NCBI GenBank assembly: GCA_001447805.1
Contig: CP013099.1
Coordinates: 2,179,181-2,243,180, forward strand
Length of the DNA: 64,000 nucleotides
DNA from: Candidatus Tenderia electrophaga
Lineage (GTDB): Bacteria > Pseudomonadota > Gammaproteobacteria > Tenderiales > Tenderiaceae
Reading direction: 5' to 3'
Positions 23,855 through 26,408 of the stretch are shown in pieces. How positions within the stretch are numbered: position 1 is the first letter of the stretch; every line of letters starts with the position of its first letter. The position numbers were made by a program, and so were the translations under genes. The notes beneath the pieces were generated by a model that made no database searches, had not been told where the DNA came from, and was given only the letters and a program-made list of their open reading frames with translations.

Positions 23855-24691
23855 ATGCGCACCTACGCAAACATTATCGCCTTGATCCTGACCTGCGTGG
23901 CAAGTACCAGCCACGCCGCCCCTCCCCGGGCCGACGACATCATCGACAAGGCCTATCGCATCGAGCGGGTGGACGACCAGATCGCCACCCTAAACTTTAC
24001 CTTCTCGGCCCCCGGCAAGGACAAGCAGGAGGTCATCTACACCATGGTGTGGAAGAACATGGCAGGGCGGGACGGCTATGACAACAAGGCCATTTTCTTT
24101 ACCGAATACCCACCCGAGAAGCGCGGCGTCGCCTACCTGGGCTGGCTCAGACGGCCCGGCAGTACTGCCAAGGATGACGAGTGGATCTATCTGCCTGAGC
24201 TGCGCATGACGCGGCGCATCGCTCATCGCGACCACGCCCATGCCCATGACGATGACGAGTTCGGCAATTCATTGCTCAAACGCGAACACCTCGACCCGCG
24301 CCCGCCCGAACTCGACCACCACCGGCTCATCGGCGAAGAGATCCTGGAGGGCAGGCCGCATTACCTCATCGCCAGCATCCCCAAACAGGCCGCCGCACAA
24401 ATGCCGGGCATGCCGCACCAAAGCGGAAAGGTCATTCGCTGGATCGATACCGAAAGCTTTCTTACCCGGCGCCTGCAGTTCTTCGAACAACACGGACAAG
24501 AAGTGCTGAGTATGCGTATCGATTGGGTCGAGAAAGACGGCTATTGGCTGTGGCGGCGCGTCATGGCCACCGATCCGCGCACCCTGGCGAATACGGTGTT
24601 GGAGATCAGCGATATCAGAATCAACACCAACCTGGACGACCGCACCTTTACCAAACGTGTCCTGGAAAAGGGCGCCGAACGCCTGCGCTAA
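23855..24691 (+). CDS. LolA-like outer-membrane lipoprotein-sorting protein
   Basis: A 278-residue exported protein of the LolA-like family typified by Treponema TP0789. Signal peptide MRTYANIIALILTCVASTSHAA, then family features: the IFFTEYPPEKRGVAYLGW stretch, DDEWIYLPELRMTRRIAHRD and FLTRRLQFFEQHG near the end. A His/Asp-rich insert (HRDHAHAHDDDE) lies around residues 125-137 and could bind metal. The protein is probably periplasmic and carries a lipid or lipoprotein. It precedes the quinone reductase-UbiA fusion by 160 bases, so a link to hydrophobic quinone handling is possible but unproven. Confidence 0.85.
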   Translation: MRTYANIIALILTCVASTSHAAPPRADDIIDKAYRIERVDDQIATLNFTFSAPGKDKQEVIYTMVWKNMAGRDGYDNKAIFFTEYPPEKRGVAYLGWLRRPGSTAKDDEWIYLPELRMTRRIAHRDHAHAHDDDEFGNSLLKREHLDPRPPELDHHRLIGEEILEGRPHYLIASIPKQAAAQMPGMPHQSGKVIRWIDTESFLTRRLQFFEQHGQEVLSMRIDWVEKDGYWLWRRVMATDPRTLANTVLEISDIRINTNLDDRTFTKRVLEKGAERLR

Positions 24692-24851: not shown

Positions 24852-26408
24852 ATGGGAACGTCCAGCAGCCAGAGCGGAAATCACAACAAGCAGAAAGTGA
24901 ACGTACTCGTCATCATGGCTCACCCGCGCAGTCCCAGCCTGTGTTCCGCCTTGGCCGACGCCTATGCCGAGGGCGCCCGCGCCGCCGGCATGGAGGTGGA
25001 AACACTGAACTTGGGCGAACTGGAATTTGATCCGGACGTGCACCCCATTTCTCCGCGCCAGCAAACCCTCGAGCCCGACCTGGAGCGGGCCCGCCGACTG
25101 ATCGAATGGGCTGACCACCTCAGCTTTGTCTACCCGGCCTGGTGGGGCGTGGGGCCGGCCCGGCTCAAGGGCTTTCTCGACCGGATAATGCTGCCCGGCT
25201 TTGCCTTTCGCGAAAAGGCGGACGGCAGTTATGAAGGCCTGCTGCCGGGCAAAACCGCCCATCTCATCACCACCATGGACATGCCACCCTGGGTCTACCG
25301 CTTTATCTTTCGCGCGCCCGGCCACAACGCCATGAAGCGTTCTACCCTCGGTTTTTGCGGCATCGACACCCCGCGCATCCTGGCGCTCGGACCGGTCAAG
25401 GATTCCCACCTGGAACAACGCCAGGACTGGCTGGAGCAGGCCCGCGCCCTGGGTTTCTCCCTGCAACACGGCGCCGAAAGCCGGGGCGCCCGCGCCAGGG
25501 CGAAACTCGTGGCCTGGATCAAGGCATTGCGGCTGCAATTCTATCCCATGACCTGGATGGCCTATACGGTCGGCGCCTTGGGGGCGCAGGCCGTCACCGG
25601 CCGGTGGGACCTGGCGCTATATCTGTTGGGCTACGCCTATCTGTTCTTTGGCGAGGCGGCGACCGTGTTCACCAATGAGTGGTTCGACTATGAAAGCGAC
25701 CGGCGCAATACGCGGTACGGCCCATTCAACGGCGGCTCACGCGTCCTGGTCAGCGGCGAATTGAGTTTTTCTGAAATCAAGGCCGGCATCGTGGTGTCCT
25801 TGGCGGCCGCCGCGGCCTGCGCCGGTGTGATACTGGACCGCTTAACGGGTAACGACACGGCCGTCGCCCTGGCGCTGTTGGCCATCTTGATCTTGGGCCT
25901 GGGTTACACCGCGCCGCCCTTGAAACTGGCCTGGCGCGGCCTCGGGGAACTCAATGTGGGGTTCACCCACAGCCTGGGCGTCATCCTGATTGGCTATCTG
26001 CTACAAGGCGGCAGCTGGCATGATCCCTTTCCCTGGCTGGTGAGTCTACCCCTGTTTCTGGCAGTGTTGCCGGCGATCATCCTCTCGGGCGTGCCAGATC
26101 TTGAGGCCGACCGCGCGGCCGGCAAACGTACCCTGGTGGTACGACTGGGGCATGGCCGCGCTGTACTGCTGGCTCTGGGCCTGGCACTTGCCGTGCCGCT
26201 ACTGGTGATGCTGATCAAGGACCTGCCGGCCCTGCACTGCGCCCTGCAGGGCCTACTGCCCTGGATACTGCCCCACGCCATGCTGATCGCCTATCTGCTC
26301 AGCCGTGAATGGCGCCACCAGACGCAGGGACGCAAAGACGGGCTGATGCTCGCGACCTTGAGCTATATCATCTGGTTCGGCCTGATCCCCTTGCTGCAGC
26401 TGAGCTGA
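24852..26408 (+). CDS. Quinone reductase (flavodoxin-like) fused to UbiA prenyltransferase
   Basis: A 518-residue two-domain protein. Residues about 16-200 form a flavodoxin-like NAD(P)H:quinone oxidoreductase with VLVIMAHPRSPSLCSALA (flavin phosphate loop) and the NQO hallmark PAWWGVGPARLKGFLDR (95-111). Residues about 225-518 form a UbiA-type membrane prenyltransferase with seven to nine hydrophobic helices. Both aspartate motifs are intact: N275-x3-D279-x3-D283 and D416-x3-D420, followed by KRTLVVRLG. The first domain should reduce a quinone at the cytoplasmic face and the second should attach an isoprenoid chain. ATG at 24852 has AGAGGT upstream. The fusion itself is seen directly; the quinone substrate is inferred. 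Confidence 0.92.
   Translation: MGTSSSQSGNHNKQKVNVLVIMAHPRSPSLCSALADAYAEGARAAGMEVETLNLGELEFDPDVHPISPRQQTLEPDLERARRLIEWADHLSFVYPAWWGVGPARLKGFLDRIMLPGFAFREKADGSYEGLLPGKTAHLITTMDMPPWVYRFIFRAPGHNAMKRSTLGFCGIDTPRILALGPVKDSHLEQRQDWLEQARALGFSLQHGAESRGARARAKLVAWIKALRLQFYPMTWMAYTVGALGAQAVTGRWDLALYLLGYAYLFFGEAATVFTNEWFDYESDRRNTRYGPFNGGSRVLVSGELSFSEIKAGIVVSLAAAAACAGVILDRLTGNDTAVALALLAILILGLGYTAPPLKLAWRGLGELNVGFTHSLGVILIGYLLQGGSWHDPFPWLVSLPLFLAVLPAIILSGVPDLEADRAAGKRTLVVRLGHGRAVLLALGLALAVPLLVMLIKDLPALHCALQGLLPWILPHAMLIAYLLSREWRHQTQGRKDGLMLATLSYIIWFGLIPLLQLS

Follow-up and report, generated by a model that had tools for sequence, protein, structure and literature searches.

A single open frame in the genome of Candidatus Tenderia electrophaga encodes an NQO-type quinone reductase fused to a prenyltransferase of the UbiA superfamily, and at least 39 distinct fusion proteins of this kind occur in Nitrotoga, haloarchaea, Burkholderiales, other gammaproteobacteria, Verrucomicrobiota and on a Roseinatronobacter plasmid. 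The fusion is a real, conserved two-domain enzyme and apparently an undescribed one; it is a variant of known families, not a new kind of system. We give a probability of roughly one half to the reading that the reductase half reduces a quinone with NAD(P)H and the UbiA half prenylates the quinol, which would make the protein one two-step membrane enzyme.

24852..26408, + strand: fused NQO-type quinone reductase/UbiA-superfamily prenyltransferase, 518 aa (open frame, Pfam, 39 distinct homologous fusions).

The window, which is the whole stretch of 64,000 nucleotides that was analysed, belongs to a genome of 3.76 Mb in two contigs that is rated 100% complete. The frame runs through its 518 codons uninterrupted. 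AGAGG, a ribosome-binding-like sequence, is situated 6 nt upstream of the ATG of the fusion, and a Shine-Dalgarno pattern search gave a result no better than chance level. Scanning for promoters and terminators yielded nothing informative. The N-terminal 15 residues are without conservation and are disordered in the AlphaFold2 model. Pfam finds both domains in this one frame, as the original prediction had it, and the architecture recurs in other genomes. The concern raised there, that the fusion could be an error of assembly, is answered by its presence across independent genomes; with the same architecture in complete genomes, in independent isolates and on a plasmid, assembly artefact and chance joining are ruled out.

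The original prediction had left to a database search how often the fusion occurs and in which quinone backgrounds; besides the number given above, carriers both with and without MenD were found. A scan of bacterial and archaeal genomes revealed relatives of the window fusion at 80% identity in a Ca. Tenderia metagenome-assembled genome (MAG), at about 70% in seven Ca. Nitrotoga, at 59% in Noviherbaspirillum and at about 50% in eleven haloarchaeal isolates; a Vitreoscilla MAG and a Verrucomicrobiales MAG carry it as well. Haloterrigena, Natrialba and Natronorubrum are among the haloarchaeal carriers. The single-contig gammaproteobacterial genome G029 carries the fusion at 55% identity, and G332, G194 and G511 are further carriers. 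The distribution is wide, yet patchy: 17 of 242 genomes of the haloarchaeal class, 3/241 in the phylum of the Verrucomicrobiales MAG, 9/120 in the Nitrotoga family (all at 69-73% identity), 3/200 in the order of Noviherbaspirillum, and just two of the seven genomes in the window's own genus. Single UbiA relatives of the fusion clade are nearly absent, the close relatives being almost only fused, while single NQO relatives are common among the genomes scanned. Around those single NQO genes that were checked, out to about 1.5 kb, no split pair with a single UbiA gene beside the NQO gene was found. We also note that the copy of Natronolimnohabitans sp. A-GB9 (L042:8001-9215) is a fusion minus about 100 residues of the UbiA domain, motif 1 included. 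In Roseinatronobacter sp. S2 (L111) the fusion is located on a 613-kb plasmid near genes for an ECF sigma factor, PRC-barrel proteins, catalase, superoxide dismutase and a cytochrome P450.

The reductase half is assigned to the NQO-type flavodoxin-fold quinone reductases by profile and fold, from which flavin binding and activity are predicted.

24900..25442, + strand: Flavodoxin_2 (NQO-type NAD(P)H:quinone reductase) domain, residues 17-197 (PF02525, E 1e-34; PDB 3lcm).
25134..25208, + strand: flavin/quinone-site segment PAWWGVGPARLKGFLDRIMLPGFAF, residues 95-119 (P95, W97, W98, P102, D110, R111 and F119 invariant in 39 fusions).

The PF02525 match covers positions 2-194 of the 198 of the profile, and the domain matches PDB 3lcm in sequence (5.7e-21); a literature search on the 3lcm enzyme returned nothing useful. 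The fold of this half matches 3lcm with a Z score of 23.8 and NQO1/NQO2 with about 23, the range being 22-24 over about 190 residues. H24, R26, S29, P95, W97, W98, D110, R111, T141 and D143 are invariant in 39/39 fusions. The fusion resembles NQO1/NQO2 and their bacterial relatives (PDB 3lcm/4f8y, 4r81) in the entire flavin-domain fold and shares with them the W...LKG(F/W)(F/L)DR segment; in contrast to these soluble proteins, which lack a transferase, it carries an attached membrane prenyltransferase. The usual substrates of NQO-type domains are small or short-chain quinones.

The UbiA half is placed in the UbiA superfamily by profile and by both Asp-rich motifs, and prenyl transfer is its predicted activity.

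25563..26336, + strand: UbiA prenyltransferase domain (Pfam match), residues 238-495 (PF01040, E 2.4e-25; UBIAD1 Z 24.3 over 270 residues).
25674..25700, + strand: Asp-rich motif 1, N275-xxx-D279-xxx-D283, with UbiA-type spacing (invariant in 39/39; unlike the DxxxxxD of MenA).
25731..25742, + strand: G294-G295-S296-R297 segment after motif 1 (in other uncharacterised UbiA-like proteins, absent from MenA).
26097..26111, + strand: Asp-rich motif 2, D416-xxx-D420, inside G-x-P-D-x-x-A-D (both D, P415 and A419 invariant in 39/39; N-N-x-R-D in MenA).

The motif residues N275/D279/D283 and D416/D420 had been named at their correct positions in the original prediction, and all are kept in 39/39 fusions, together with K425, P415, A419, R227, R362, G365, E366, T372 and H373. 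In the alignment, the fusions present N-xxx-D-xxx-D, then GPF(N/T)GGS, then G-x-PD-xx-AD, whereas the MenA signatures are N-xxx-D-xxxxx-D and NN-x-RD-xxx-D; the longer spacing of motif 1 is present in haloarchaeal, verrucomicrobial and E. coli MenA alike. UBIAD1 also has N-xxx-D-xxxxx-D as its motif 1, in place of the NxxxDxxxD of the fusion. Motif 1 differs likewise between MenA (DxxxxxD) and UbiA (PMC9235831). The fusions thus have neither the DxxxxxD motif 1 nor the NNxRDxxxD motif 2 of MenA and UBIAD1, the latter being replaced by G-x-P-D-x-x-A-D with its invariant P. The fusion UbiA domains lie with MenA on one side of the UbiA tree, and both have the GK-T tail after motif 2; nevertheless, they form a clade outside MenA with 0.835 support, in a tree built without UBIAD1 itself. 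MenA models are among the best NCBIfam matches of the fusion, every one far below its cut-off. UbiA/COQ2, the 4-hydroxybenzoate polyprenyltransferase, has the same NxxxDxxxD spacing as the fusion but forms a clade apart, and its YAMVDRxDD motif 2 is missing from the fusion; heme O synthase is likewise far away. By tree and signatures the UbiA half is a subfamily of its own. Since the MenA/UBIAD1 signatures are missing, specificity for a quinol is not implied through kinship. Unfused, uncharacterised UbiA-like proteins of gammaproteobacteria (L009, L010, L013) share the GGSR and PDxxAD features and possibly perform the same chemistry without a reductase.

The structure prediction proposed at the outset gave an NQO-type N-terminal half and a UBIAD1-like C-terminal half, in an AlphaFold2 model built from 18 fusions (mean pLDDT 85.9, pTM 0.70). 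The two are connected by basic helices.

25443..25532, + strand: basic connecting helices, residues 198-227, leading into TM1 with a conserved A-L-R-L-Q-F (R227 invariant; alignment, model).

Nine membrane helices are predicted in the stretch from residue 228 to 517. In structure, the UbiA half comes closest to UBIAD1, the animal MK-4 synthase (PDB 8djk; Z 24.3, 270 residues, 2.9 Å), with only 18% identity, followed by ApUbiA (Z 22.5), an archaeal lipid synthase (21.8) and AfUbiA (21.1). UBIAD1 has no reductase domain, and in motif 2 it keeps NNxRD where the fusion has GxPDxxAD. The comparison with UBIAD1 made in the original prediction stands for the fold, may hold for the mechanism in which the substrate is reduced, and fails as membership of the MenA/UBIAD1 group, from which replaced signatures and a separate clade set the fusion apart. 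Loops 0, 2, 4, 6 and 8, on the NQO side, hold 16 K/R residues versus 2 in the remaining loops. By the positive-inside rule, this places the flavin domain and both Asp-rich loops on the same, predicted cytoplasmic side. The Asp-rich loops of AfUbiA are on the cytoplasmic side, in agreement with this prediction (PMC4106721). Model and positive-inside rule together predict the topology of the UbiA superfamily, in which eight or nine helices are present and the motifs are cytoplasmic.

Compared with the copy in the sister Tenderia genome, the window fusion has a dN/dS of about 0.14 in each domain (0.111/0.770 and 0.119/0.874), and the ratio is clearly below 1 in every usable Nitrotoga and haloarchaeal pair; judged by these ratios, purifying selection acts on both domains. 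The sister copy (L022:6847-8388; contig shared with G003:C56 and L047) contains a single in-frame TAG (codon 128 in the aligned frame), which despite the low ratio in both domains would be a recent break or an assembly error. The NQO domains of the fusions group in a single clade (0.917), the sister of which consists of single NQO proteins from Pseudomonas and others, and the UbiA domains group in a single clade of their own (0.835); these values are FastTree supports, not bootstraps. With one clade per domain, a single fusion event with wide transfer fits best; on the simplest reading, the fusion would have arisen once, long ago, and later spread horizontally, also into haloarchaea. The UbiA clade includes the sole unfused close UbiA found (G1183, L137:8995-10128; 43%), which has no adjacent reductase gene. 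It looks like a decayed descendant of the fusion, because D283 is replaced by A and the protein is placed inside the fusion clade.

The quinone background was surveyed in 17 carrier genomes with the markers MenD and PF02621 (MqnA/D), each against its cut-off. MenD is above cut-off only in eight haloarchaea and the Verrucomicrobiales MAG, and PF02621 in none of the 17. The Pseudomonadota carriers without MenD or MqnA are the window genome, its Tenderia relative, G029, three Nitrotoga, Noviherbaspirillum and the Vitreoscilla MAG. Eight of the nine MenD carriers have a UbiA-family gene of MenA length no more than about 20 kb from menD on the same contig; the ninth, G064, has the two genes on different contigs. 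All four MenA-like proteins aligned from MenD carriers have the MenA signatures. The fusion as the missing MenA is ruled out for the MenD-bearing carriers, where another MenA is present. The window genome has only two other UbiA proteins, one encoded by a gene adjoining ubiC and the other a HAD-UbiA protein in a polysaccharide-like cluster. The HAD-UbiA fusion (L046:7002-8462, about position 2952000 of C1 of the window genome) lies in a glycosyltransferase/sulfotransferase-like cluster and has relatives in G003 and the Nitrotoga genome G057. A role as standard MenA or UbiA appears unlikely for the fusion, given the separate MenA near menD, the lack of MenD and MqnA in the Pseudomonadota carriers and the genome's own ubiC-ubiA. 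On the same grounds, with MenD carriers mostly having a separate MenA, the proposed role outside the normal menaquinone and ubiquinone routes is supported.

No neighbour gene common to the main carrier groups was found in the fusion neighbourhoods compared, and no pathway is indicated by them.

23855..24691, + strand: LolA-like gene upstream, judged outside the system (PF17131, E 9.7e-30).

This gene had been suggested to handle the lipid product. It is a genuine PF17131 member that is not conserved beside the fusion: in the sister genome (L022), the gene immediately before the fusion is rhlE and no LolA-like gene is at that place, which rules it out as a partner. A genome of the verrucomicrobial phylum (L138) has a LolA-like gene two genes from the fusion, on the other strand and beside an ABC-transporter pair, which is taken as chance. 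In three Nitrotoga (L023, L024, L029) the fusion is immediately preceded by a gene of the chlorite-dismutase family, and in two others (L027, L028) this gene is situated about 3 kb upstream; the Pfam match was run on L023:7045-7884 only, the other copies being its homologues.

In the proposed mechanism, the flavin domain would carry out the two-electron reduction of a quinone by NAD(P)H to the hydroquinone. The latter would act as the nucleophile that the UbiA domain, with Mg2+, joins to a polyprenyl diphosphate, and the product would be a membrane-held prenylquinol formed at the membrane surface. The probable acceptor is a quinone with a short side chain or none, and neither 4-hydroxybenzoate nor, in most carriers, DHNA. 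This reading is favored by the stable fusion, the intact active-site residues of both halves, their shared membrane side and the need of UBIAD1 for reduced menadione. Without reductant UBIAD1 forms no MK-4, from which its authors concluded that reduction of menadione precedes prenylation (PMC4398444), and prenylation of a hydroquinone has been reported for a fungal UbiA-type enzyme (PMC12790560). Against it counts that the related single NQO domains could work without any prenyltransferase.

The purpose would be either to salvage quinones into a lipoquinone or to dispose of toxic soluble ones. In the latter case the chemistry would be the same and the function one of stress, toxic quinones being trapped in the membrane as harmless prenylquinols. 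The patchy, transferable distribution across genomes with very different quinone pools fits such a function, as does the Roseinatronobacter fusion among catalase, superoxide dismutase, ferritin-like, PRC-barrel and ECF-sigma genes; however, this stress setting is seen at one locus only, with no such pattern in the other neighbourhoods, and we hold disposal to be unlikely.

The order of the two reactions could also be reversed, the UbiA product oxidising to a quinone that the flavin domain keeps reduced for later methylation or as a membrane antioxidant. A precedent is offered by NDC1, which is of the NDH-2 type. In plants, NDC1 reduces a prenylated naphthoquinone ahead of methylation by MenG in phylloquinone synthesis (PMC6189191). 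As in our proposal for the fusion, a quinone reductase feeds the next biosynthetic enzyme (PMC6189191), but NDC1 and MenG are separate proteins and the reduction comes before methylation, not before prenylation. The predicted placement of both fusion domains on the same membrane side suits this order as well. It is nevertheless unlikely, as no methyltransferase or other conserved partner adjoins the fusion in the neighbourhoods compared and the substrate preference of NQO-type domains described above is for small quinones.

It is distinctly improbable that the UbiA half prenylates a non-quinone aromatic while the reductase half serves a different step or compound. The signature of its own (GGS, GxPDxxAD), outside the MenA and UbiA clades, would allow for this, and UbiA-like enzymes with unexpected acceptors are known, such as Ubi-297, which farnesylates hydroxyquinoline carboxylic acids (PMC9235831); a quinone reductase stably fused to this half, on the other hand, speaks for a shared redox substrate. 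That the UbiA half is a mere membrane anchor for a reductase acting on the ubiquinone or menaquinone pool would suit the presence of UQ-type as well as MK-type organisms among the carriers, but is hardly credible: an anchor needs neither Mg-site residues that stay the same in all 39 proteins nor the purifying selection that acts on the UbiA domain.

No description of an NQO-UbiA fusion was found in the open-access literature searched, including that on haloarchaea and Nitrotoga, which is no proof of novelty. If reduction and prenylation do proceed in series, this would be, as far as we could find, the first described single enzyme that makes and prenylates a quinol. Tentatively, the fusion may represent an unrecognised lipoquinone route common to nitrite oxidisers, a lineage related to Ca. 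Tenderia, the biocathode bacterium, soil Burkholderiales and haloarchaea, in which one and the same protein would reduce and re-prenylate a quinone that has been scavenged or recycled and so supply an additional membrane quinone, independently of the Men, futalosine and Ubi pathways. The two halves working in series would offer a genetic handle on quinone salvage across organisms with very different respiratory quinones and, because the fused reductase points to the acceptor, a testable assignment for substrate-poor UbiA-like families.
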